Below, piece by piece: positions 2 through 18,042 of a DNA stretch of 19,562 bases. Below the pieces are notes generated by a model. That model saw only the letters and a program-made list of their open reading frames with translations. It ran no database searches and had not been told where the DNA came from. Numbering within the stretch: position 1 is the first letter of the stretch; each line of letters opens with the position of its first letter. Source of the DNA: a bacterium (GTDB taxonomy: Bacteria; DYJV01; JALVYZ01). Where the stretch lies: positions 1 through 19,562 of the forward strand of contig JALVYZ010000424.1 of NCBI GenBank assembly GCA_027037705.1, given 5' to 3'. A program made the translations under genes and the position numbers.

Positions 2-949
2 AAAGCATTTGATGTTCATCCTTTTGAAGTTTGGGGGCCACCAGCTATTTCAGATAAAAGTGGAAGTGCTCATTTGCAATCTTATATTTGTTCTATAGTT
101 AAAAATGGTTTATCTTTCTTACTTGATGGGGGGCTTGAGGTAGCAGATATAATTGTAATACCTCATTGCTGTGATTCATTACAGGGATTTGGAAGCATTG
201 TTAAAGATTTTATAAATATAGAAAAACCTGTAATTACATTTTATCTACCAAGAAATAATAGAAAAGTAGATATAGAATTTTTAGCAACTGAATTTGAAAA
301 TATTTATAAAAAATTATCTAAAATTACAGGGAAAAAACCTTCCTATGAAGATTTATTAAATTCAATAAATTTAGAGGAAAAAATTGATGAAATTTTATTA
401 AAAGTTAATGATTATAACATATTAAGATTAAGAGAGTTTTTGCCAGATGAGGATTTTATAAGATTAATTGAAGATAGTTTATCTAAAGGAAAAATTAAAA
501 AAGATGAAAAAGTTCCTATTATAATTTCTGGAATAATTCCGGAACCCAAAGAAATTTTAAATATTATTGAAGAGGCAGGAGGATATATTGCTGCTGATGA
601 TTTAGCCTGTATTAGAAGAAGAATTTATCCAAAAGGTAAAAGTAAAAATCCTTTTATTAGAATGGCTGAGAGAATTTTAAATGGTCCGCCATGTCCAATG
701 AAAAATTCTTCAATTAGAGATAGGATAAACTTTCTTGCAAATTTAGTAAATAAAACAAAAGCTAAGGGAATAATATTTTACAATATAAAATTCTGTGAAG
801 CAGAAAATTTTTATCATCCTTTTATTATAAATTATTTTAAGGAAATAGGAATAAGTTGTTTGAAAGTTGAGGTTGATTTAAATAGCTCAATTTCTGCCCA
901 AATTATTACAAGGATAAGAGCTTTTATTGAAATGTTAAAAGGAGTATAA
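2..949 (+). CDS. 2-hydroxyacyl-CoA dehydratase family subunit (HgdB/BcrC-like), 5' truncated
   Basis: The frame is open from the left edge, so the true start lies outside the window; 315 residues are visible. The visible part opens with a WGPP motif and a cysteine-bearing segment ([10 protein letters not shown]), followed by [25 protein letters not shown] and KFCEAE. It ends in [14 protein letters not shown], a form of the (G)Q-x-x-TR-x-x-AF-x-EML tail typical of this family. These cysteines are the expected ligands of the [4Fe-4S] cluster used for radical dehydration of a 2-hydroxyacyl-CoA. The next gene begins one base after the stop and encodes a second dehydratase-type subunit, with an activator after that, so this is a two-subunit enzyme with its activase. 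The substrate cannot be read from sequence. A benzoyl-CoA-reductase-like or double-cubane reductase role is possible. The TTG at 74 is internal, because conserved sequence precedes it. Confidence 0.85.
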
Positions 950-950
950 A

Positions 951-2264
951 TTGTCTCTTTTTGAATATATATTAAATTATAAGATTTTTGGAGCAACTTA
1001 CTTTAAATTACAAAAGATAAAAGAACAAATTTTTTTTAAATATCCAAAATCCTGGAACACGGATATCTTTGCACCACCATTAAAAATAGGTTCTTATACA
1101 AAAGAGTTAATTTCTTCCCACTATCTTGAGGGGCGTTTTGTAAAAGGAGTAAAGCCTGTTGCTTGGGTTACTTCAGGAGCTCCTGTTGAAATTTTAAAAG
1201 CTCTTGGATTTTATATCTTGTATCCAGAAAATCATGGAGCTTTATGTGGAGCAAAGAAGGTTGCAGTAGATCTATGTGTTGAAGCTGAAAAGAGAGGATA
1301 TTCAATTGATATTTGTTCATATTCAAGAACAGATTTTGGAAGCATTTTTTCAGGTAAAACCCCTGTTGGAAAATTACCAAAACCTGATTTGTTGTTAACT
1401 TGTTCAAATATATGTCAGACTGTTTTATACTGGTATCAGGTTTTATCTCATTACTTTAAAGTTCCATTATTAATAATTGATACTCCTTTTTTATATGAAA
1501 AAGCAAAAGATTATGAGATTGAATATGTAAAAAAACAGCTTGAAGATTCTATCCCGATTTGTGAAAAAGTTGCAAAAAAGAATTTAAATTTTAAGAAATT
1601 AAAAAAAGTTGTTAAATTAAGCAAAGAAGCAACTGAATTATGGTTTGAAATAATAAAAACTGCAAAAAATAAACCATCTCCGATTTCTGTATTTGATCAA
1701 TTTATTCACATGGCTCCAATTGTTGAAATGCGAGGAGAAGAAAAGACTGTAAAATTTTACAATATATTACTAAATGAATTAAAGGATAGAATTTCAAATG
1801 GTATTGGTGCAGTTAAAAATGAGAAAAAGAGAGTTTTATGGGATAATCTACCAATATGGTATAAAATAAAATTTTTCAGTGAATTTTTAGCTGAAAATGG
1901 AGTTGCTGTTGTTGCCTCAACATATACAAATGCGTGGGGGGAGCTATGTTCTTTAATTGATCCAGATAGACCTATAGAATCTGTTTCAAAAACTTACCTT
2001 CATCCAATTTTAAATAGGAGTACAAAAGATAAATTATATACAATATTTAATATGATCGATGAATTTTCAATTGATGGAGTAATTTTACATTCTGATAGAT
2101 CCTGTAAGCCTTACTCTATTGGACAGATAGACCAGAGAAAGAAATTCATTGAAAAAAAACAAATTCCAGCAATTTTAATTGAATCAGATCATAATGATTC
2201 AAGAGCATTTTCTGATGAACAAATTAAAAATAGATTATTAACATTAATTGAAATGATGGAGTAA
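951..2264 (+). CDS. 2-hydroxyacyl-CoA dehydratase family subunit (HgdA/BcrB-like)
   Basis: A 437-residue protein of the 2-hydroxyglutaryl-CoA dehydratase/benzoyl-CoA reductase family. Supporting motifs are [13 protein letters not shown] (about 71-83), the [12 protein letters not shown] segment with C151 and C155, and the following [15 protein letters not shown] stretch, which is characteristic of these subunits. Further candidate cluster or structural cysteines are C99, C109, C122, C333 and C385. With the upstream gene it should form the heterodimeric, iron-sulfur, oxygen-sensitive dehydratase component. The start is TTG, chosen because a GGAG at 941-944 sits six bases upstream and the gene follows the previous stop by one base, which implies translational coupling. 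The family assignment is firm; the substrate is unknown. Confidence 0.87.
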
Positions 2265-2265
2265 A

Positions 2266-3018
2266 ATGGTTTCATTAGGCATTGATGCAGGTTCAACAAC
2301 TATAAAAATTATTGGAATTGATAAAAATAAAAAGATTGTTTTTGAAAAGATAGAAAATACTGAGCCTGATATTGATAAGCAGGTAAAAAGATTACTAAAA
2401 AATATAAAAATTTCTGAAATTAAAATAGTTGTCACAGGTTATGGAAGTAATTTAATAAAATTTGCAACTAAAAAAGTAACTGAGATAACATGTCATGCTA
2501 CAGGAGCATTTTATTATTTTAAAAAAGGTGGAACATTAATTGATATCGGTGGGCAAGATAGTAAAGTAGTAATTATTTCTGATAATGGTAAAGTTCTTGA
2601 TTTTACAATGAATGATAAATGTGCAGCAGGAACAGGCAGATTTTTGGAAAATATAGCATGGAGATTAAAAATTCCAGTTGAAAGAATGGGAGATATAGCG
2701 CTTAATTCAGAAAAAGAGGTTAACATTTCAAGTACATGTGCAGTCTTTGCTGAAAGTGAAGTAATTTCAATGCTTGCAAGAGGAGAAGAGTTAGAAGCAG
2801 TGATAAAAGGCCTTCATAGGGCTCTCGTAAAGAGAATAGGAGCAATGGCAAATTCTCTTAATATTTTTCCTCCGCTAATTCTTTCTGGTGGTGTTTCTAA
2901 AAATAAAGCAATTCAAAGAATGCTTAAAGAGGAATTAGGCTTTAATATACTAATTCCTGAAAATCCACAAATCATAGGAGCATACGGAGCTGCAATTTTG
3001 GGAATAGATCGTATATAA
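2266..3018 (+). CDS. 2-hydroxyacyl-CoA dehydratase activator (HgdC/BcrD-type ATPase)
   Basis: A 250-residue protein of the BadF/BadG/BcrA/BcrD/HgdC ASKHA ATPase family. It carries the phosphate-1 loop [10 protein letters not shown] (5-14), the DIGGQDSK motif (93-100), the cluster cysteine in NDKCAAGTG (C119), a second one in [11 protein letters not shown] (C158), and the adenosine/phosphate-2 region [10 protein letters not shown] (206-215). In the known activators two such cysteines per subunit bridge one [4Fe-4S] cluster across a homodimer. ATP hydrolysis then drives one low-potential electron into the dehydratase. The length is normal for the family. It starts one base after the preceding stop, with a GGAG at 2258-2261, and forms one transcription unit with the two dehydratase subunits. 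The electron donor is probably a ferredoxin or flavodoxin; none is encoded adjacent. Confidence 0.93.
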
Positions 3019-3026
3019 ATAAGTTC

Positions 3027-3059
3027 TTTAGTTTTATTAAAATATTGCTAAAAACTAAA
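3027..3059. terminator. Weak AT-rich inverted repeat between convergent genes
   Basis: The 81-bp gap between the activator gene and the convergent sugar-dehydratase gene holds a 9-bp perfect inverted repeat: TTTAGTTTT at 3027-3035 and AAAACTAAA at 3051-3059, with a 15-nt loop. It may act as a bidirectional terminator, but it lacks G+C pairs and a clear T-run, so the call is weak. Nothing else is recognisable in the gap. Confidence 0.3.
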
Positions 3060-3099
3060 TGAGAATTAACCTGAGATATTGATAGTTTTTGCAAGAAAT

Positions 3100-4920
3100 T
3101 TAATAAGAATTTATAAACTTATCAATAATCTTTTTTAATTTTTCTGTATTTCTTATATTTTCATTTATTTCTTTAATAAATTTTTCAAGTTCTTCAAAAG
3201 TTGTTTTTGAGTTCACAATGGTTTTAAATATTTTTTTATGTTCTGTTGGAAGTTTTTCTTCATCATCATTCAAAAGTTCTTCTTTTAATTTTTCCCCAGG
3301 TCTTAGTCCTGTATATTGAATTTCTATATCCTGATATGGTGTCAATCCTTGAAGTTTTATTAAATTTTCTGCAAGTTCTATTATTTTAATAGGTTCTCCC
3401 ATATCAAGAATGAAAATTTCTCCATTATTTTCTCCAAAAATTGAAGCTTGTAGCACAAGCAGAACTGCTTCTGGTATTGTCATAAAAAATCTTTCAATTT
3501 CAGGATGAGTTATTTTTACAGGACCACCATTTTTTATCTGTTCTAAAAATATTGGAATTACACTACCTCTACTGCCTAAAACATTTCCGAATCTTACAGA
3601 AATAAATTTTGTTACATCAAGAGAATTAAATGTTGAACAAATAATTTCTGCAACTCTTTTAGTTTTACCCATAATATTAACTGGGTTTACAGCTTTATCA
3701 GTGGATATATTTATAAATTTTTCTATTTTCTGTTCAAGGCATATTTTAGCAATATTGTATGTGCCTAATATATTAGTTTTTATTGCTTCTTCAGGGAAAA
3801 ACTCCATTAATGGTACATGTTTATATGCTGCTGCATGGAAAACAATGTCTATGTGATGTTGGGTAAGTACATTTTTGAATTTTTCACTATCTTTTATATC
3901 ACCTACAACAGGAATGAATTTATTTTCAAGAACCTCAAGAGTTAAATTGTATAGTTCTGTTTCATCAATTTCATATCCAACGATTTTGTTTGGGGTAAAT
4001 TTTATAAGCTGTCTTACAATTTCTGAGCCAATTGATCCGCCTGCCCCTGTAACTAAAATGTTTTTGTTTGTAAAATAATTTTTAATTGAATTTTCATCTA
4101 TTTTTACAACTTCTCTTGATAATAGATCTTCAATTGTAATATCTTTCAAATCTTTTAATGATATTATTTTTTTTGATGATAACAGTTTTGGTAATATTTT
4201 AATATCGTTTATGTTATATTTTTTTGCAATATCAATTATTTCTTTTAGTTTTTTATATGGAATATCTGGAATCGCGACTATTATTGTATCAATATTGTTA
4301 TTTTTCAAAAAATTTTCAAGGTCATTTATTTTTCCAAAAACTTTAACTCCATGGATAAGAGTGTTTATTTTGTTGTTATCATCATCTAAAAAAGCAACTG
4401 GATAATATTCTTTAGAATAGAGTAATTCTCTTGCTACCTGTTCACCAGTTTTGTCAGCTCCCATAATAACTGTTCTTTTACCTTTTTTATTTATTGATGA
4501 TAACATTTCAGTAAAAACTCTTTTAGAAATTCTAAAAGATGAAATTAAAAATATTGAAATAAAGAAATCAATAAATGGAATACTTCTTGGAACAAAAATT
4601 GAGGGTGCATATATTAAAGCAAAATGATCAAAAAGTATCATAATTAATAAAGTAATTGTAAAAGCTTTTATTATTGAAATAAATTCTGTAATACTAACAT
4701 ATCTCCAGCTTACAGAATAAAGTCTAAAATAACCAAGGAGAATGATTTTAAATAAGATTACAAATGGTAGCCAATAGTATAATTGTTTTTCAAAATTCGG
4801 ATTTATATTAAAATCAAATCTTAAATAGTATGAAAAATAAAAACTGATTGTAAGAAGAATAATATCAACGATTAGAAAAAAGATTGCTCTTTTAAAAAAT
4901 GTTGGTTTAAATAAATTCAT
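3100..4920 (-). CDS. Membrane-bound nucleotide-sugar 4,6-dehydratase (CapD/PglF/WbpM family)
   Basis: About 606 residues when started at the ATG at 4920. Four hydrophobic segments occupy roughly the first 130 residues. A CoA-binding-like Rossmann domain follows (IMGADKTGEQVAREL, about 152-166), then an extended SDR domain with NAD motif TGAGGSIG (about 291-298), AAAYKHVP, STDKAVNP (about 406-413) and MGKTK (about 417-421). The SDR YxxxK is replaced by MxxxK, as in UDP-GlcNAc 4,6-dehydratases of the PglF/WbpM/CapD group. These make UDP-4-keto-6-deoxy sugars for polysaccharide or protein glycosylation at the inner membrane. It is transcribed away from the NifA-like gene and stands alone here, without glycosyltransferases nearby. 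An in-frame TTG at 4932 could add four residues. Neither start has a clear ribosome-binding site; ATG is preferred. Confidence 0.9.
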   Translation of the reverse strand: MNLFKPTFFKRAIFFLIVDIILLTISFYFSYYLRFDFNINPNFEKQLYYWLPFVILFKIILLGYFRLYSVSWRYVSITEFISIIKAFTITLLIMILFDHFALIYAPSIFVPRSIPFIDFFISIFLISSFRISKRVFTEMLSSINKKGKRTVIMGADKTGEQVARELLYSKEYYPVAFLDDDNNKINTLIHGVKVFGKINDLENFLKNNNIDTIIVAIPDIPYKKLKEIIDIAKKYNINDIKILPKLLSSKKIISLKDLKDITIEDLLSREVVKIDENSIKNYFTNKNILVTGAGGSIGSEIVRQLIKFTPNKIVGYEIDETELYNLTLEVLENKFIPVVGDIKDSEKFKNVLTQHHIDIVFHAAAYKHVPLMEFFPEEAIKTNILGTYNIAKICLEQKIEKFINISTDKAVNPVNIMGKTKRVAEIICSTFNSLDVTKFISVRFGNVLGSRGSVIPIFLEQIKNGGPVKITHPEIERFFMTIPEAVLLVLQASIFGENNGEIFILDMGEPIKIIELAENLIKLQGLTPYQDIEIQYTGLRPGEKLKEELLNDDEEKLPTEHKKIFKTIVNSKTTFEELEKFIKEINENIRNTEKLKKIIDKFINSY

Positions 4921-4952
4921 GATTTTTTTCAATTAGCAAAATTATTTTTTCA

Positions 4953-4988
4953 TTGCAATATATTTAAAATTTGTGGTAAAATTATAAT
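4953..4988 (+). promoter_or_regulatory. Candidate promoter of the NifA-like gene, possibly giving a leaderless transcript
   Basis: The only non-coding DNA before the ATG at 4989 is about 60 bp shared with the divergent gene. TTGCAA (4953-4958), 18 bp, then TAAAAT (4977-4982) would place the transcription start at about the ATG itself. No Shine-Dalgarno sequence precedes the ATG. A TATAAT at 4983-4988 abuts the start codon but has no -35 partner at normal spacing. The -35 lies in an 8-bp palindrome ATTGCAAT (4952-4959), so the same hexamer reads on the other strand toward the sugar-dehydratase gene. Confidence 0.35.
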
Positions 4989-6503
4989 ATGAAATCAAAT
5001 AAGTATCTTTCTGCAATTCAAAAAATAAGTGAACTTGTTTCTAAAAATGTTGATTTTACAGAATTAATGAAAAATATTCTTATAATTTTGTCAAATGAAG
5101 TAAATATGCAAAGAGGTATGATTTCAATTTATAGAAGGGATTTACAGAAGATAATTGTAGATGTAACTTATGGAATCCCCAAACAGGGAGAAATGGTTTT
5201 TTACAAAGTAGGCGAAGGGATAACTGGTAAAGTTGTTGAAACAGGAAGGCCAATTGCAATTCCAAGAATTGATAAAGAGCCATTGTTTCTTGATAGAACA
5301 GGAGCGCGAAGAAAAATAGACAGATCTAAGTTGGCTTTTATCTGTGTGCCTATAAAATATGATAACGAGGTAGTAGGTGCTTTAAGTGTTGATAGAGTTT
5401 CAGAAAAAGATGATTTAAAATTTGAAGTATCGTTTTTAGAGACTATTGCGAATATTATTGCTTCTAAAGTACATTCACGTCGTATAATGGATGAAAATAT
5501 AAAGCTAAGAGACGCTATTTCAAGACATAGTCCTGTGGGGACAATAATTGGAAATTCAAGCTCAATGAGACATGTTGCGGAACTTATAAATCAGGTAGCT
5601 GAAACTGATACAACAATTTTAATTACAGGAGAAACTGGAACAGGTAAAGGACTTGTTGCATCTGAAATTCATCAGAGAAGTAGAAGAAAAAATGGTCCTT
5701 TTATTAGAGTTAATTGTGGTGCAATCCCTGAAAATTTGATAGAATCGGAGCTTTTTGGTCATGAAAAAGGTTCTTTTACAGGGGCAATCTCAACAAGGAA
5801 AGGTAAATTTGAAGAAGCAAATAGAGGAACAATATTTTTAGATGAAATAGGAGAATTATCTTTAAGTGCTCAGGTAAAATTGTTAAAAGTTTTAGAAGAT
5901 AGAGAAGTGACAAGAATTGGGAGTAATAAACCAATAAAAGTTGATGTAAGAATTATTGCTGCTACTAATAAAAATCTTGAAAAAGAGGTTGAAAAAGGAA
6001 ACTTTAGATTAGATTTGTTGTATAGATTAAATATTTTTCCAATTCATTTACCTCCATTAAGAGAAAGGGGTTCAGATATAATATTGCTTGCAGATTATTT
6101 TGTTCAAGTGCTGAGTGAAAAACTTGGAAAAAAAATTAAGAGAATTGATTCAAGTGCTATAGATTTAATGATGTCTTATCATTGGCCTGGTAATGTTAGA
6201 GAGTTGCAAAATTGTATTGAAAGGGCTATATTAATAGCAGAAGGAGATGTAATTTATGGTTATCATCTACCTCCTTCACTGCAAATAGAAGGAGAGTTAA
6301 AACAGGAAAAAACGTTATTTACAGGAAATTTTAAAGAGCTTGTTGAAAATTATGAAAAAACTTTAATTGTGAATGCATTAAAAAAAGCAAAAGGTAAACA
6401 GTCTGAAGCAGCAAAAATTTTAGGGACAACTAAAAGAATAATTCAATACAAAATTCAAAAATATGAAATTGATTACAAAAAATATGCTGGAGTAACAATT
6501 TAA
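4989..6503 (+). CDS. NifA-like sigma-54-dependent transcriptional activator (GAF-AAA+-Fis)
   Basis: A 504-residue protein with three parts. An N-terminal GAF domain (about 10-165) contains the NifA-like signatures RGMISIY, GEGITGKVVETG and PLFLDRTGARR. A sigma-54-interacting AAA+ domain (about 183-415) has Walker A GETGTGKG (214-221), the sigma-54 contact loop GSFTGA (261-266), Walker B IFLDE (282-286), an arginine-finger region FRLDLLYRLN and WPGNVREL. A C-terminal Fis-type helix-turn-helix spans about 463-492. It should remodel sigma-54 RNA polymerase at GG/GC promoters in response to a GAF-sensed signal. There is no receiver domain, so a histidine-kinase partner is not expected. No nitrogenase gene is in the window, so the NifA resemblance does not fix the regulon. 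It heads the 11-gene chain, and the next gene starts 31 bp downstream. Confidence 0.9.
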   Translation: MKSNKYLSAIQKISELVSKNVDFTELMKNILIILSNEVNMQRGMISIYRRDLQKIIVDVTYGIPKQGEMVFYKVGEGITGKVVETGRPIAIPRIDKEPLFLDRTGARRKIDRSKLAFICVPIKYDNEVVGALSVDRVSEKDDLKFEVSFLETIANIIASKVHSRRIMDENIKLRDAISRHSPVGTIIGNSSSMRHVAELINQVAETDTTILITGETGTGKGLVASEIHQRSRRKNGPFIRVNCGAIPENLIESELFGHEKGSFTGAISTRKGKFEEANRGTIFLDEIGELSLSAQVKLLKVLEDREVTRIGSNKPIKVDVRIIAATNKNLEKEVEKGNFRLDLLYRLNIFPIHLPPLRERGSDIILLADYFVQVLSEKLGKKIKRIDSSAIDLMMSYHWPGNVRELQNCIERAILIAEGDVIYGYHLPPSLQIEGELKQEKTLFTGNFKELVENYEKTLIVNALKKAKGKQSEAAKILGTTKRIIQYKIQKYEIDYKKYAGVTI

Positions 6504-8486: not shown

Positions 8487-9082
8487 TGTCAACATTATTT
8501 CTTTTCAGACATACTGAGACTGTAAATACACAAGATGGAAAATTTAGATATAATGGATTTATAGATGTAGATATTGTCCCAGAGGGATTAAATCGTTTAA
8601 AAAAGTTTATATCTATAATTAAATATAAAAATATTAAAAAAGTCTACTCAAGTGATTTAAAAAGAGCTTATAAAGGCGCAAAAATATTTGCTGATGCTTT
8701 AGGTCTGGAAATTATAAAATTAAAAGAGTTAAGAGAGGTAAAACAGGGGATTTTTGAAGGATTAACATATAATGAAATAATTGAAAAATATCCTGATGAA
8801 GCAGAAAAAAAATTTTCAGATTATGTAAATTATAGAGTTAAGGATGCTGAATCTCTAAAAGATGCATACAACAGAGTAATACCATGTATCAAAAAAATTA
8901 TGAGCTCAGATGAAAATGTAATTATTGTTGCTCATGGCGGGATAAATATGCTAATCCTATGTCACTGCTTAAATATGGATTTAAAAGATTTTTTTAGAAT
9001 TCAGCAGGATTTTGGGTGTATGAATGAAATTGAATTTATGGATAATTTTATTAAAGTAGTAAGAATGAATTTTGTTCTGTAA
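8486..9082 (+). CDS. Histidine phosphatase superfamily protein (phosphoglycerate-mutase-like)
   Basis: A 198-residue, single-domain cytosolic protein. The N-terminal FRHTET supplies the catalytic R8-H9, with Thr where the classical RHGE has Gly. Other expected active-site residues are R60 (SSDLKRA), E84 (ELREVKQGIFEG) and H150 (VIIVAHGG). The length and motif spacing match CobC/GpmB-like phosphatases rather than cofactor-dependent glycolytic mutases, which are longer. The substrate is unknown: alpha-ribazole phosphate and various small phosphoesters are possible, and no cobalamin gene is nearby. The ATG overlaps the UbiB stop (TAATG), and the next gene overlaps in the same way. Confidence 0.85.
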   Translation: MSTLFLFRHTETVNTQDGKFRYNGFIDVDIVPEGLNRLKKFISIIKYKNIKKVYSSDLKRAYKGAKIFADALGLEIIKLKELREVKQGIFEGLTYNEIIEKYPDEAEKKFSDYVNYRVKDAESLKDAYNRVIPCIKKIMSSDENVIIVAHGGINMLILCHCLNMDLKDFFRIQQDFGCMNEIEFMDNFIKVVRMNFVL

Positions 9083-10677
9083 TGAAAAAAATATTTATAT
9101 TTAATTTTTTAAAATCAATTTATTCCATTTTCATTCTTCTACCTCCTATTCTTGTTTTTTTATTAATATTTCCTTCATCTCTATTTTCAATAAAATGTAA
9201 TCCATGCCATAAAAATATCACACCAATTGATAAAAACCATAATTTTAAATGTGGATACTGTCATATTAAAGATAATGAAAAACTAAAAATTAGAAATGAA
9301 AAATGTATAAATATCATAAAAAATCCATCTGATTTAAAATTTGCAAAATATAAATGTGGGAAATGTCATGAAGATGAAATTAAAAGAGTAAAAACATCGT
9401 TAATGAGTACAAATGTTGGAATTATAAATACTACAAGATTTTTGTGGGGAGAACAAAATTCACCAAAAGCTAAATATTCAACAGTAAAAGTAAAAAATTT
9501 AAAAAAAATTCCAGATAAAAAGTTAGTTGATGATTTTTTAAGAAAGGTCTGCTTACGCTGTCATATTAATACTGAAGGTTCAAAAAGATTTGGAGAAATA
9601 AGAAGTTCAGGTTGTGCAGCTTGTCATGTGATTTATAAAAATGACGGAACTCATGAACACAAATTTGCAAAAAAAATTCCGTCTTCTCAATGTCTTCACT
9701 GTCATAATTTTAATAGAGTTGGAATGGATTATGAAGGTTATTTTGAACATGACTATGCTTTAGCTTATCGCTCTCCTTTACCATTGAGGGAAAAAATCTA
9801 TGGAGAATATCAGCATAGATTGAGAGCAGATATTCATTTTTTAAAAGGAATGGAGTGTATAGATTGTCATTCAAAAGATGAAGTTATGGGTGATGGAAAT
9901 ATTTATTCATTTAAATATCAGGCTGTAAAAGTTAGGTGTATTAATTGCCATAAAAAAGTTCATAAAAATGATAATTTTTATAAAAAACATAAAAGACTTG
10001 AATGTTATAGCTGTCATTCATTGTGGGGGTTCCAAGATTATGGGATGCATGTTATAAGAGAAGATTATAAAGGGTATTTTAGATGGAAATTTTTAAAAGA
10101 TACAAATGTTCCAGATACTCAAAAGATTTTAAAGGAAGCAATTGATGGGTATGGAGATACTTCAAAACTTGTTGATGGCAAATCAGTGAAATTTAAAAAT
10201 GTTGAGCCAAAGATTACTGATTACATTGAGGAAAAGAAAAAATTAGGAGTTTGGTATATTTTATGGACTTTTAGAAGATGGGAAGACCCTGTGCTTGGTA
10301 TAAATCAAAGGGGGAAAATATCTCCTGTGAGACCAGATTATCAATTTTATGTTACATGGATTGATAAAGATATGAATGTTAAAATTGATAACAAAAGAAT
10401 GAAATTTAACTGGAATCCTTATGTCCCCCATACTACAATAAAACAGGGGAGAGATTGCTATTCTTGTCATTTTAATATAAAATCATTGGGACTTGGTTAT
10501 GGTATGATTTCAAAAGATGGTAAAATTTTAAATATGTTTGATATAAAAAAAAATAAATTTAAAATTGATTATCCTCTTGAAAAAATTATTAATTTAGATG
10601 GAAAAATTCTTCAAAATTTTATATATAAAAATTTTTTACAATTAACATTAAAAGTTATAAAAAAGCTTATAAAATGA
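9082..10677 (+). CDS. Decaheme c-type cytochrome with N-terminal membrane anchor or signal
   Basis: A 531-residue protein with ten CxxCH heme-attachment motifs, starting at residues 39, 57, 92, 157, 178, 204, 259, 286, 308 and 459. An N-terminal hydrophobic stretch (about 10-35) directs it across the inner membrane as a signal peptide or an uncleaved anchor; no convincing cleavage site is seen. Hemes should be attached in the periplasm by cytochrome c maturation proteins, which are not in the window. Nine motifs lie within residues 39-312. A heme-free, Trp/Tyr-rich stretch of about 146 residues follows (including LWTFRRWEDPVLG and RPDYQFYVTW), then the tenth motif and a heme-free tail of about 70 residues. 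I cannot place it in a named enzyme family. It could be an electron-transfer conduit or a reductase. It overlaps the upstream gene by 1 bp and the downstream transglycosylase gene by 4 bp. Confidence 0.9.
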   Translation: MKKIFIFNFLKSIYSIFILLPPILVFLLIFPSSLFSIKCNPCHKNITPIDKNHNFKCGYCHIKDNEKLKIRNEKCINIIKNPSDLKFAKYKCGKCHEDEIKRVKTSLMSTNVGIINTTRFLWGEQNSPKAKYSTVKVKNLKKIPDKKLVDDFLRKVCLRCHINTEGSKRFGEIRSSGCAACHVIYKNDGTHEHKFAKKIPSSQCLHCHNFNRVGMDYEGYFEHDYALAYRSPLPLREKIYGEYQHRLRADIHFLKGMECIDCHSKDEVMGDGNIYSFKYQAVKVRCINCHKKVHKNDNFYKKHKRLECYSCHSLWGFQDYGMHVIREDYKGYFRWKFLKDTNVPDTQKILKEAIDGYGDTSKLVDGKSVKFKNVEPKITDYIEEKKKLGVWYILWTFRRWEDPVLGINQRGKISPVRPDYQFYVTWIDKDMNVKIDNKRMKFNWNPYVPHTTIKQGRDCYSCHFNIKSLGLGYGMISKDGKILNMFDIKKNKFKIDYPLEKIINLDGKILQNFIYKNFLQLTLKVIKKLIK

Positions 10678-11462
10678 AAAAAATTATAATTTTTTTAATA
10701 ATTATTTTAATAACACATATATCAATTTTATATTCAAAAAAAGATGATTTTTATGCTAAATTTAAAATTACTCCAGTAATAGATGAAGTCGCTATTAACA
10801 ATATAAAATATGTTGAAATAAAAGCAAATTATGATAGATTTTTATCGCCAGAAATTGTAAAATTGGCGAATAATTGCTATAAAAAAAATTTAAAATGGTT
10901 AAAAAAAGCTCATAAAATTTATAAAGTAAATCCTAAAATTATTGTAGCAATTTTAACTGTGGAAAGTCTATGTGGCAATTATCATGAGAAATATAATATA
11001 GTTGGTGTATACAAGACATTGATAAAGCTTAATAAAGATAAAAAATATCAGAGAAAAATTTTTAAAATTGTAAAATTAAAATATCCTAAAACTTCAAAAA
11101 AATGGTTTAAAAAACGAATTTTAAAAAAATATAAATGGGCAAAAAAACAGTTAGTAGCATTAAAAAAGATTTATGAAAAATATAAAATTAATGTTTTTAA
11201 CATAAAAGGTTCTTGGGCTGGAGCTTTTGGATTGCCTCAATTTATTCCAACAACTTTTTTAAATTATGCAGTTGATGGGAATAAAGATGGAAAAATTAAT
11301 TTAGATTCATTTCCAGATGCAATATTTAGTATTGCAAATTATTTAAAAAAGAATGGCTGGAATGAAAACTTTTCAAATAAGAAAAAGTATAAAGTAATTT
11401 TAAGATATAACAATAGTAAATTATATGCAGAAACTATTTTAAAATTAGCAGGAAAAATTTAA
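10674..11462 (+). CDS. Lytic murein transglycosylase, MltB-like (GH103)
   Basis: A 262-residue exported protein with a hydrophobic signal sequence (about residues 4-20, followed by SKKDD). The catalytic glutamate is E97 in VAILTVESLCG. The GH103 signature GSWAGAFGLPQFIPTTFLNYAVDGN begins at residue 179 and is followed by SIANYLKKNGW (219-229). Such enzymes cleave the MurNAc-GlcNAc bond of peptidoglycan to 1,6-anhydro ends, for wall remodelling or for inserting envelope-spanning complexes. It is shorter than E. coli MltB (about 360 residues), and no lipobox cysteine is seen at the signal end, so it may be periplasmic and soluble or membrane-tethered. The start codon overlaps the cytochrome stop (ATGA), and its stop overlaps tmk by 1 bp. 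Confidence 0.88.
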   Translation: MKKIIIFLIIILITHISILYSKKDDFYAKFKITPVIDEVAINNIKYVEIKANYDRFLSPEIVKLANNCYKKNLKWLKKAHKIYKVNPKIIVAILTVESLCGNYHEKYNIVGVYKTLIKLNKDKKYQRKIFKIVKLKYPKTSKKWFKKRILKKYKWAKKQLVALKKIYEKYKINVFNIKGSWAGAFGLPQFIPTTFLNYAVDGNKDGKINLDSFPDAIFSIANYLKKNGWNENFSNKKKYKVILRYNNSKLYAETILKLAGKI

Positions 11463-12094
11463 TGTATATTGTATTTGAAGGCATAGAGGGTAGTGGAAAA
11501 AGTTTGCAAATAAAACTTTTAAAAGATTTTTTAGAATTAAATTGCATTGATTTTATAATTACAAAAGAACCAGGTTCTACAAAAATTGGGATGCAGATAA
11601 GAGAAATTTTATTATCATCAAAAAATAAAGAGATGTCTTATTTAACTGAACTTTTTTTATACAATGCAGATAGAGCTCAACATTTTGAGGAAGTTATTAT
11701 CCCAAATTATGGGAAAAAAGTTATTATATCAGATAGAAGTTTTTTCTCAACATTTGCATATCAGGGATATGGTAGAGGGATATCATTTAAATTACTTGAA
11801 AATTTAAATAAAATTTCTACAAATGGTATTTCTCCTGATTTGGTAATATTACTTGATTGTGAGCCTGAAATTGGCATAAAAAGAGCATTAATAAGAGAAG
11901 AGACATTAGAGAATGCTCGATTTGAGCTTGAAGATATTGAATTCCATAAAAGAGTGAGAGAGGGATATTTAAAATTAGCAGATGAAAAAAATTGGTTAAT
12001 TTGTAATGCTACTTTATCACCAGAAAAAATTAATAATCAAATAATTAATTATCTTAAAAATGATAGAAATTTTAAAAATTTTATTAAAAAATAA
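11462..12094 (+). CDS. tmk: Thymidylate kinase
   Basis: A 210-residue dTMP kinase that makes dTDP for DNA synthesis. It shows the P-loop GIEGSGKS (7-14), the dTMP-binding EPGS (36-39), the DR motif ISDRSFFSTFAYQGYGRG (89-106) and the arginine-containing LID region (RALIREETLENARFE, 141-155). The length is typical. The residue after GKS is Leu (GKSLQ), where most bacterial homologues have Thr; this is a small departure that does not alter the call. Its 3' end overlaps holB by 35 bp. The tmk-holB-ricT order that follows is a conserved gene neighbourhood in many bacteria. Confidence 0.95.
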   Translation: MYIVFEGIEGSGKSLQIKLLKDFLELNCIDFIITKEPGSTKIGMQIREILLSSKNKEMSYLTELFLYNADRAQHFEEVIIPNYGKKVIISDRSFFSTFAYQGYGRGISFKLLENLNKISTNGISPDLVILLDCEPEIGIKRALIREETLENARFELEDIEFHKRVREGYLKLADEKNWLICNATLSPEKINNQIINYLKNDRNFKNFIKK

Positions 12095-12800
12095 TAAGTT
12101 CCCACAATCTTCAATTTTTAATAGTGGAAATATAGAGGTCCCCTTTTTTGTTATTAAATACCTTTTTTGCGAAAATAAAGAAGTAAAACCTTGTAATGCC
12201 TGTCTATCTTGTAAAAAAGTAAATAAAAGAGTGCATCCTGATCTTTTTGTAGTTGATATTGAAGAAGGAGCAAAAAATATCAAAATCAATCAGATTAGAG
12301 AAGTAAAAAATTTTTGTTCTATGACAACTTCTGGAAGATGTAAAGCAGTATTTATAAATAACGCAGAGTTTATGTCAATTGAAGCTCAAAATTCTATTTT
12401 AAAGATACTTGAAGAACCTGGAGATAATAACTATTTTTTATTAAAAACAAAAAATAAATATAAACTTTTACCAACAATTTTATCTCGTTGTGTTCATTTT
12501 AATCTAAAGCCAGTCGATAATTTTTTTAAAAATGAAGAATTTTCTTTAAAAAATTTAAAAAAATTATCTTTTTTTGAGGTTTATGATAAATTAAATGAAT
12601 TAATAAAAGAAGTAAAAAATTTAGAAGATTTTTTAAAAATTTTAATATATTCAAATTATCCAGATGAAATTGATTTTTTATTTTTACTTTTAAATTTTGA
12701 ATCTTATATTAAATATAACATAAATAAAGATACTGTAATTGGAGTGATTTCATTCTGGATTAAAGGAGGAGAAAATTGTCAAATAAAATTTGCTATTTAA
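12060..12800 (+). CDS. holB: DNA polymerase III delta' subunit (clamp-loader)
   Basis: A 246-residue protein with the clamp-loader delta' layout: an N-terminal KNNKFPQSSIF segment, a zinc-binding cysteine set (C37, C45, C48, C51 in CNACLSC), the IKINQIREV segment, FINNAEFMSIEAQNSILKILEEP (starting at 98), and the SRC sensor motif LSRC (141-144). The P-loop position reads NSGNIEVPFF and has no GxxGxGK(T/S). It therefore should not bind ATP, as expected for delta' rather than gamma/tau. It is shorter than usual (about 300-330 residues), so the C-terminal collar domain appears reduced. It overlaps tmk by 35 bp and ricT by 25 bp. The start at 12060 keeps the conserved N-terminus. Confidence 0.87.
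   Translation: MIEILKILLKNNKFPQSSIFNSGNIEVPFFVIKYLFCENKEVKPCNACLSCKKVNKRVHPDLFVVDIEEGAKNIKINQIREVKNFCSMTTSGRCKAVFINNAEFMSIEAQNSILKILEEPGDNNYFLLKTKNKYKLLPTILSRCVHFNLKPVDNFFKNEEFSLKNLKKLSFFEVYDKLNELIKEVKNLEDFLKILIYSNYPDEIDFLFLLLNFESYIKYNINKDTVIGVISFWIKGGENCQIKFAI
12762..12770 (+). promoter_or_regulatory. Strong ribosome-binding site that sets the TTG start of ricT
   Basis: AAAGGAGGA lies five bases before the TTG at 12776, inside the end of holB. It is among the best Shine-Dalgarno matches in the window and supports this non-ATG start, which keeps the conserved N-terminus of RicT. Confidence 0.75.
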
Positions 12801-16005: not shown

Positions 16006-16410
16006 GTGTCAATAGTTAGAATGACCAAACAAAGAGAGATAATTTTAGAAGAGCTTAGAAAATTAAAAACTCATCCAACAGCAAGTGATTTATATGACAT
16101 TGTGAGAAAGAGATTGCCAAAGATAAGTCTTGGTACTGTATACAGAAATCTTGAAATTTTGGCGGAAATGGGATTGATAAAAAAACTTGAAATTGCTGGT
16201 AAAGAAAAAAGGTGGGATGGAGACATTTCAAAACATTATCATTTTCGATGCGTTAAATGTGGGAAAGTAGAGGATATTTTTTTAAAAGATGAAGATTTAG
16301 AAAAATTAGATTCTTTTTTCAAAAATTACATCAATGATAATGTAAAATTTGAAGAGATGAATGTAGAAATTAGTGGTTTATGTAAAGATTGTAATACAAT
16401 TAATAATTAA
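16006..16410 (+). CDS. perR: Fur-family regulator, probably peroxide-sensing PerR
   Basis: A 134-residue protein with an N-terminal winged helix ([12 protein letters not shown], then [14 protein letters not shown] as the recognition helix) and a C-terminal dimerisation domain. Structural zinc cysteines are C82, C85, C126 and C129. The regulatory metal site of Bacillus PerR (H37, D85, H91, H93, D104) has counterparts at H23 (HPTASD), D71 (RWDG), H77 and H79 (HYHFRC) and D90 (KVEDI). Having Asp rather than Glu at the last position favours peroxide-sensing PerR over iron-sensing Fur. The GTG start is chosen because AAAGGGGGAG precedes it; an ATG at 16021 would remove five residues. It heads a superoxide/iron operon and probably represses it through the adjoining palindromes. 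Confidence 0.85.
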
Positions 16411-16424
16411 AAGGAGGTTTTAAA

Positions 16425-16808
16425 ATGGCAGAAAAATTACAAGTTTATAAATGTGAAAAATGTGGAAATATTGTTGAGGTTCTTCACGGTGGGGTTGGTA
16501 AATTAGCTTGCTGTGGTCAAGATATGGTTTTAATGGAAGAAAATACTGTTGATGCTGCAAAAGAGAAACATGTCCCTGTAATTGAAAAGATTGATGGTGG
16601 GTATAAAGTTACTGTTGGAAGTGTTATTCATCCAATGGAAGAAAAACACTATATTGAGTGGATTGAATTAATTACAGAAGATGGAAAAGCATATAGACAA
16701 TTTTTAAAACCAGGTGATGAACCAGTTGCAATATTTAAAGTTGATGCTCAAAAAGTTACAGCAAGAGAACATTGTAACTTACATGGTGTCTGGAAGGCAA
16801 GTAATTAG
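16425..16808 (+). CDS. dfx: Desulfoferrodoxin (2Fe superoxide reductase)
   Basis: A 127-residue two-domain superoxide reductase that reduces superoxide to peroxide in the cytoplasm. The N-terminal desulforedoxin-type centre I has C10, C13, C29 and C30 (CEKC and ACCG). The C-terminal catalytic centre II has H49 (EKHVP), H69, H75, C117 and H120 (REHCNLHG) as the His4Cys iron ligands, with E47-K48 forming the conserved EKH motif. A strong ribosome-binding site AAGGAGG (16411-16417) lies directly after the perR stop. Rubredoxin, encoded two genes downstream, is the usual electron donor in anaerobes. Confidence 0.96.
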
Positions 16809-16842
16809 GCTGAATGGTGAAAGCTTAAGGCAGAAGGATAAA
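16808..16842 (+). repeat. Five degenerate 7-bp tandem repeats (GGCTGAA-like)
   Basis: Starting at the last base of the dfx stop codon, the sequence divides into heptamers ggctgaa, tggtgaa, agcttaa, ggcagaa and ggataaa. All keep AA at positions 6-7, and most keep G at position 2. The region is non-coding, lies inside the operon, and is richer in G than its surroundings. Confidence 0.55.
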
Positions 16843-16852
16843 AAAAATTAAA

Positions 16853-16880
16853 AACCACGAGTGCAGAACCACGACTCACG
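16853..16880 (+). repeat. Four degenerate 7-bp tandem repeats (AACCACG/ACTCACG-like)
   Basis: The heptamers aaccacg, agtgcag, aaccacg and actcacg follow one another in phase; the first and third are identical. This array differs from the G-rich one 10 bp upstream but has the same 7-bp period. It lies just before the ferritin ribosome-binding site and is locally G+C-rich in an AT-rich genome. Confidence 0.55.
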
Positions 16881-16885
16881 ATTAA

Positions 16886-16894
16886 AAAAAGGAG
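16886..16894 (+). promoter_or_regulatory. Ribosome-binding site that sets the ferritin start
   Basis: AAAAAGGAG lies five bases before the ATG at 16900. It supports that start over an in-frame GTG at 16861, which falls within the heptamer repeats and would add 13 residues unlike any ferritin N-terminus. Confidence 0.75.
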
Positions 16895-16899
16895 TTAAA

Positions 16900-17412
16900 A
16901 TGTTAGCAGAAAGAATTGAAAAAGAATTAAATAAACAAATTAATGCAGAATTGTACTCTGCTTATCTTTATTTTGCAATGAGTGCTTATTTCCAGGAGCA
17001 GGGATTAACAGGTTTTGCAAAATGGATGGAAGCTCAAACTGTTGAAGAGATGGGACATGCTAAGAAGATTTATGATTATGTTTTTGATAGAGGTGGAAGA
17101 GTTGAGCTTGAAGAGATAAAAAAACCACCAGTTAGCTGGAATTCACCATTAGATGCATTTAAAGCTGCTTTAGAACATGAAAGATATGTTTCAAAATTAA
17201 TTAATGAACTTGTTAAAATTGCATTAGAAGAAAATGATTATATGACAAATAATTTTTTACAGTGGTTTGTAGCAGAACAAGTAGAAGAGGAAGCAAGTGT
17301 CGGAGAGATAGTTCAAAGGTTGCATTTAGTTGGAGATAGAGGTAATGGATTGTTTATGATAGATCGAGAATTAGGTCAAAGAACAATTACATTGCCTACA
17401 AATCAACAATAA
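16900..17412 (+). CDS. ftnA: Non-heme ferritin (FtnA type)
   Basis: A 170-residue iron-storage ferritin that assembles into a cytoplasmic 24-subunit shell. Ferroxidase residues fall at the same positions as in E. coli FtnA: E17, E50, H53, E94, Q127 and E130. The start [17 protein letters not shown] is the normal family N-terminus. In this operon it would bind Fe2+ as superoxide is removed, limiting peroxide-driven Fenton chemistry. The 91-bp gap upstream contains two heptamer-repeat arrays and no clear promoter, so it is probably cotranscribed with perR and dfx. Rubredoxin follows after 16 bp. Confidence 0.95.
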
Positions 17413-17428
17413 TTTTTGGAGGAAAGAA

Positions 17429-17593
17429 ATGGAAAAATATGTATGTGAAATTTGTGGGTATGTTTATGACCCAGAAAAAGGTGATCCAGATAATGGAATA
17501 GAACCAGGAACAGCTTTTGAAGATTTACCTGAAGATTGGGTTTGTCCAATTTGTGGTGCAGGAAAAGAAGATTTTACTAAAGAGGAGGAATAA
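17429..17593 (+). CDS. Rubredoxin
   Basis: A 54-residue complete rubredoxin with iron-binding cysteines C6, C9 (VCEICGY), C39 and C42 (VCPICGA), the aromatic core [10 protein letters not shown], and LPEDWVCP. It is a small cytoplasmic one-electron carrier and the usual donor to superoxide reductase, two genes upstream. A good ribosome-binding site, GGAGGAA (17418-17424), precedes the ATG. The gene ends two bases before the flavodoxin ATG, and the flavodoxin ribosome-binding site GAGGAGG (17582-17588) lies within its last codons, so the two are probably translationally coupled. It is short enough to be skipped by length-filtered gene calling. Confidence 0.96.
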
Positions 17594-17595
17594 AA

Positions 17596-18042
17596 ATGGG
17601 TAAGGTTTTAATTGCATATTTAAGTTTAAAAGGTCATACTGAAAAATTAGCTGAGTATATTGCTGAGGGTGTTAGAATTGGAGGATGTGAAGCAGATGTA
17701 AAAAAGGTGAATGATATTAAAAAGCCAGAAGATTTAGAAGGATATGATGCATACATTTTTGGAAGTCCTACTTATCATAGAGATATGCCCCAGAAAATGA
17801 AAACATTTTTGTTTTTAGCAAAAGAAGCTAATTTAGAAGGTAAAGTTGCAGGTGCATTTGGTTCTTATACTCACTCTGGAGATGCTCCTAAATTAATATT
17901 TGAAACAATGGAGTTTGTTTTTAAAATGAAGCCAGTTAGTTTAGGCTCTTTTAATGTAAAAGAAGGTGATATTGATAAAGATGAATATTTGAGAGCATGT
18001 CAGCAGTATGGTAGAGCTGTGTGTGAGCAAGCAAATAGTTAG
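17596..18042 (+). CDS. Flavodoxin-like FMN protein
   Basis: A 148-residue flavodoxin-fold protein. The FMN phosphate loop is SLKGHTEKLAE (10-20), the 50s region gives FGSPTYHRDMP (55-65), and the 90s loop is GSYTHSGDAP. The length suits a stand-alone short-chain flavodoxin or the flavodoxin domain of FprA-type flavodiiron proteins; no diiron domain is attached or adjacent. It may act as a low-potential carrier for the superoxide/oxygen-defence enzymes of this operon or, less likely, for the dehydratase activator elsewhere. It is the last gene before a strong terminator. Confidence 0.88.
   Translation: MGKVLIAYLSLKGHTEKLAEYIAEGVRIGGCEADVKKVNDIKKPEDLEGYDAYIFGSPTYHRDMPQKMKTFLFLAKEANLEGKVAGAFGSYTHSGDAPKLIFETMEFVFKMKPVSLGSFNVKEGDIDKDEYLRACQQYGRAVCEQANS

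Follow-up and report, generated by a model that had tools for sequence, protein, structure and literature searches.

The stretch of DNA analysed here (the window, 19,562 nt) carries a gene for a 531-residue multiheme cytochrome c that overlaps its upstream reading frame by a single base (9082) and its downstream frame by four (10674-10677). Its immediate upstream neighbour encodes a histidine phosphatase, with genes for an ABC1/UbiB-type kinase and a phasin-like protein also on that side, and directly downstream lies an SLT-family transglycosylase. The original prediction had noted that no partner reductase, porin, quinol dehydrogenase or maturation gene is adjacent, and this holds throughout the window, which also contains no ext/cbc cluster (ExtM, Rieske/cytochrome b) around the gene. 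Plasmid records gave no match to the protein. Two other gene sets in the window deserve mention in their own right. Positions 2-3018 encode two proteins assigned by Pfam to the 2-hydroxyglutaryl-CoA dehydratase D-component, followed by what appears by eye to be an ATP-binding activator, a set that looks like a radical dehydratase or benzoyl-CoA reductase-like system. At 16006-18042 stand consecutive genes for a Fur-like regulator and for desulfoferrodoxin-like, ferritin-like and flavodoxin-like proteins, which together look like a cluster for oxidative stress and iron; the ferritin was named by Pfam and the others by eye.

The ten CxxCH motifs reported in the original prediction stand well clear of chance, in that 20,000 composition-preserving shuffles of the protein averaged 0.03 motifs, with no shuffle exceeding 3. 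Their described spacing, with nine motifs within residues 39-312 and one at residue 459, is likewise correct. The sole strongly hydrophobic stretch of the protein, as judged by hydropathy, spans residues 12-30, and so the earlier suggestion that the protein is exported, or alternatively anchored by its N-terminus, is plausible. Apart from those in the heme motifs the protein has a single cysteine, Cys75, at a position that is His in all 21 other divergent ExtN-like (N-side, see below) proteins and in 95% of ExtM-like ones. Should this His be a distal heme ligand, the window protein would have exchanged it for Cys; an error of sequencing or assembly could equally lie behind the substitution.

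Table 1. Features of the cytochrome gene and of related loci. Positions are those of the window unless a contig is given.
Feature	Position	Strand	Basis or remark
ExtN/CbcN-type decaheme cytochrome c gene	9082..10677	+	ATG start, 531 aa
N-terminal hydrophobic export/anchor segment, residues 1-37	9082..9192	+	hydropathy maximum 12-30; predicted helix 2-29
Heme site 1, CNPCH, residue 39	9196..9210	+	aligned heme columns, motif count
Heme site 2, CGYCH, residue 57	9250..9264	+	aligned heme columns, motif count
Cys75 codon, only non-heme Cys	9304..9306	+	alignment
Heme site 3, CGKCH, residue 92	9355..9369	+	aligned heme columns, motif count
Heme site 4, CLRCH, residue 157	9550..9564	+	aligned heme columns, motif count
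Heme site 5, CAACH, residue 178	9613..9627	+	aligned heme columns, motif count
Heme site 6, CLHCH, residue 204	9691..9705	+	aligned heme columns, motif count
Heme site 7, CIDCH, residue 259	9856..9870	+	aligned heme columns, motif count
Heme site 8, CINCH, residue 286	9937..9951	+	aligned heme columns, motif count
Heme site 9, CYSCH, residue 308	10003..10017	+	aligned heme columns, motif count
QDYGMH at place of extra ExtM heme site (CYGCH)	10033..10050	+	neither this protein nor Geobacter ExtN has CYGCH
Heme site 10, CYSCH, residue 459	10456..10470	+	aligned heme columns, motif count
GSU2203/DmsE-type decaheme lipoprotein	L131 (G000:C63) 270-1223	-	own genome; above family cut-offs
GSU2203/DmsE-type decaheme lipoprotein	L145 (G000:C166) 11455-12486	-	own genome; above family cut-offs
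MtrB/PioB-like barrel	L145 (G000:C166) 9046-11436	-	one in-frame TGA
MtrB/PioB-like barrel, partial	L145 (G000:C166) 96-1367	+	one in-frame TGA
MtrB/PioB-like barrel	L146 (G001:C160) 2739-5129	+	one in-frame TGA

The protein had been described as lying outside recognisable families, a view that several lines of evidence contradict. It matches the NCBIfam models for ExtM (NF040943; 1.3e-61, 209 bits against a cut-off of 800) and ExtN (NF040967; 2.1e-32, 112.5 bits against a cut-off of 200), with the higher whole-protein score for ExtM and both scores under the curated cut-offs. Pfam returned generic c7/c3 cytochrome matches only, and models for DmsE, OmcA/MtrC and other decaheme cytochromes matched at 1e-6 or weaker. 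The comparison with the MtrA/DmsE and OmcA families proposed in the original prediction accordingly yielded no assignment, the protein reaching 28.5 of 192.2 bits for MtrA/DmsE (TIGR03508) and 14.7 of 209.3 bits for OmcA/MtrC (TIGR03507). Species genomes scanned with the window protein as single query yielded no relative, and the same scan with an alignment of five closer relatives retrieved 80 loci.

A tree of 134 superfamily proteins divides into two sides, one of 86 proteins (ExtM) and one of 48 (ExtN), the latter holding Geobacter ExtN, the products of the second gene in many ExtM-ExtN pairs and the window protein with a support of 100. In a second, more careful tree of 48 rows the ExtM-specific heme columns were blanked, so that the split cannot rest on the extra hemes, and the N and M sides still stood apart (support 99/100, 98% of bootstrap trees). 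In both trees a long branch, of about 2 changes per column, leads to Geobacter ExtN. Each of the ten heme sites in the window protein has its homologue in Geobacter-type ExtN. Of the proteins tabulated, all 22 on the ExtM side and none of the 47 on the N side carry the two extra sites of ExtM, the internal CYGCH and a C-terminal one. Aligned heme columns were used for this table after a simpler criterion, two CxxCH motifs 8-14 residues apart, had failed to split Geobacter ExtN from ExtM.

The window protein, which lacks two of the twelve sites (CYGCH and the C-terminal one) that mark the ExtM dodecaheme, is thus ExtN-type, having the same ten sites as Geobacter ExtN and missing the same two. 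Heme sites and trees together rule out the ExtM assignment that its higher model score would have suggested. ExtM nevertheless resembles it as a member of the same superfamily whose N-terminal eight hemes align well. Family and heme-site homology are seen directly in the sequences, and on that footing the protein belongs to the 10-heme ExtN side of the ExtM/ExtN superfamily. Because it misses the ExtN cut-off and has no ext cluster around it, we call it ExtN-like rather than an ExtN equivalog. It is also longer than Geobacter ExtN/CbcN (531 aa compared with about 415-450). The scores below curated cut-offs might be read as a sign that the protein represents an unrelated, uncharacterised decaheme family whose ExtM and ExtN matches merely reflect shared CxxCH motifs. 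We regard this as extremely improbable, however, in view of near-full-length alignments to N-side proteins of other phyla (28-42% identity) in which non-heme residues are conserved too, the single branch shared with ExtN, and the weak matches of unrelated decahemes (DmsE/OmcA). The uncharacterised family envisaged earlier, which is at odds with the ExtN-side grouping, the heme-site homology and an orthologue in a related genome, gives way to a new but divergent representative of a family that is already known, though little studied.

Members of this family have been described in Geobacter. GSU2934 and GSU2935 are the 10-heme and 12-heme proteins of a conserved cytochrome bc cluster and belong to the small number of cytochromes that the six Geobacter genomes compared in one study all share (PMC2825233). 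They have been named ExtN and ExtM, respectively (PMC5877670), and GSU2934 is also listed as cbcN (PMC13194489), with the 10-heme CbcN described as part of the CbcMNOPQR complex (PMC10989804). The activity ascribed to Cbc complexes is that of menaquinol:ferricytochrome c oxidoreductases (PMC8235581), and ExtO is a 14 kDa Rieske protein (PMC5877670). The cited Geobacter papers contain no measured activity for ExtN itself and no tested role for ExtM/ExtN. A separate observation concerns the NCBIfam model NF040968 (FeS_ExtO), which has 416 positions and scores the ExtN protein at locus L082 (11748-13091, +) at 474.7 bits, compared with 470.4 for the ExtN model. Since ExtN scores no worse with it than with the ExtN model, while ExtO is only 14 kDa, the name or seed of NF040968 looks mistaken.

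The structure predicted by AlphaFold2 with 48 relatives (mean pLDDT 86.7, pTM 0.86) bears on whether the protein could instead have a catalytic role, such as reducing oxyanions of sulfur, nitrogen or selenium in the manner of OTR, NrfA or HAO. Its best VIA-align partner is octaheme tetrathionate reductase (OTR, PDB 1sp3; Z 9.0 over 275 residues, 4.4 A), with OcwA and HAO far lower at Z 3.3-3.5 (HAO 3.4); only chains ranked by Foldseek were covered, which makes the absence of other families there uninformative. The family profile touches NrfA-type nitrite reductases over part of their length (best 1.5e-7), and the Geobacter ext cluster has been tied to selenite and tellurite reduction through ExtI (PMC5877670). 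The published phenotype belongs to extI, however, and not to extN; Foldseek alone found no match to the model in the PDB; and all ten motifs of the protein are plain CxxCH, with no CxxCK variant. OTR itself is only 16% identical, binds eight hemes rather than ten and gave no sequence match at the threshold used. An enzymatic role is therefore very unlikely in our estimation. Of the comparison with OTR, HAO and NrfA suggested in the original prediction, a distant resemblance in fold survives, but matches to characterised members in sequence are partial and none is full-length. We take the OTR/NrfA resemblance as distant kinship among multiheme cytochromes and not as evidence of enzyme activity.

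The genomic setting is informative about possible partners, with the proviso that calls of presence and absence are searches of a fragmentary assembly (93% complete, 496 contigs). A second superfamily member, on contig C311, matches the ExtM model at 2e-110 over nearly its whole length, and so the genome, like those of Geobacter, possesses ExtM as well as an ExtN-type protein. The order-mate, the only other genome of the phylum examined, has one ExtM and a 60%-identical orthologue of the window protein, which is also solitary; the window protein is thus no one-off. A 5 kb core of the order-mate's ExtM contig is identical to NCBI DYJV01000003.1 (a MAG, Candidatus Methylomirabilis sp. isolate SulCav_AS07-7). 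In both genomes the ExtM and ExtN-type genes lie far apart on separate contigs without ext neighbours, and gene order around the window locus and the order-mate's orthologue is not conserved. Pairing of the two genes in genomes is directly observed, and elsewhere they are usually adjacent, as in many other lineages. Two loci (L034 and L047) have the order Rieske, cytochrome b, ExtM, ExtN-like, and an ORF with a Rieske motif lies within 5 kb at 30 of 51 pair loci compared with 7 of 36 single-gene loci. The genome of the window also encodes a CcsB-type heme lyase together with ResB beside a tetraheme cytochrome (contig C362). The System II pathway of cytochrome maturation, read directly from these genes, is thus present, and the absence of maturation genes, which the original prediction had named as an argument against function, does not apply.

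Both genomes contain MtrB/PioB-type barrels with adjacent GSU2203-type decaheme lipoproteins, making an exit route for electrons across the outer membrane plausible. The genome of the window has two barrel copies and two lipoproteins (Table 1), and thus other decahemes besides the window protein. A search of this genome for the ExtI porin, run with no positive control, was negative.

The barrel genes have features of their own. Each of the three contains one TGA in frame, at corresponding positions (YGG*GGHAFTDRVGSACDK, YAG*GGHVFSDQVGSACDK and FNG*AGTAFTPQVGCGK), with a GGU-type loop ([AG]GGTYG) 22 bases 3' of the TGA in every case. RNA folding was better than in shuffles at only one of the three sites, and at other places in the two genomes TGA acts as a normal stop codon. 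These sequences raise the possibility of an outer-membrane barrel that contains selenocysteine. The barrels at L145 9046-11436 (-) and L146 2739-5129 (+) each contain a single CxxCH (CTLCHVRGLRK and CTACHVRGLRK, respectively), and both adjoin a gene for a GSU2203-type decaheme lipoprotein.

With conduits of this kind present, the window protein might be a solitary periplasmic carrier or capacitor that, with ExtM, serves MtrAB-like conduits directly and receives electrons from another quinol dehydrogenase, with no Rieske/cytochrome b complex involved. Neither Rieske nor cytochrome b was found in its own genome by Pfam model or with the order-mate's proteins as queries, and Nitrospinota ExtM-ExtN pair loci have no Rieske gene nearby. 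Loss of the complex is not established, however: the fragmentary state of the assembly makes this absence weak evidence, and the order-mate keeps a Rieske protein and an ExtP-like cytochrome b (ExtP 8e-64) side by side, on a contig other than those of its M and N genes. We consider a solitary carrier unlikely on balance. A more specific form, in which ExtM and ExtN of this little-known phylum are both free-standing periplasmic wires feeding MtrAB-like conduits without Rieske/cytochrome b and one distal ligand of ExtN has changed from His to Cys75, seems quite improbable.

The reading we favour, and consider probable, is that the window gene encodes a divergent ExtN/CbcN-type decaheme that acts as a periplasmic wire fed by menaquinol oxidation through an ExtOP/Cbc-type Rieske/cytochrome b complex. 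In other genomes, ExtN-side genes occur alongside the Rieske and cytochrome b genes of such complexes, although in the genome of the window these core genes were not found and in the order-mate they occupy another contig. We infer the periplasmic location, partner, direction of electron flow and activity of the protein. In the proposed pathway, the apoprotein would be matured by the System II CcsB/ResB machinery and would reside in the periplasm as a heme wire next to ExtM. An ExtO/ExtP (Cbc-type) core of Rieske protein and cytochrome b would oxidise menaquinol and supply the electrons, which the wire would presumably hand on to periplasmic carriers and MtrAB-like outer-membrane conduits. The ext cluster has been split into separate loci in this lineage.

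As a single finding the window gene is ordinary. It does extend the N type to a small phylum, in which the ExtM/ExtN pair persists though the cluster is scattered, and the two missing heme sites supply a clean rule for distinguishing ExtN and ExtM in cases that the family models do not settle.
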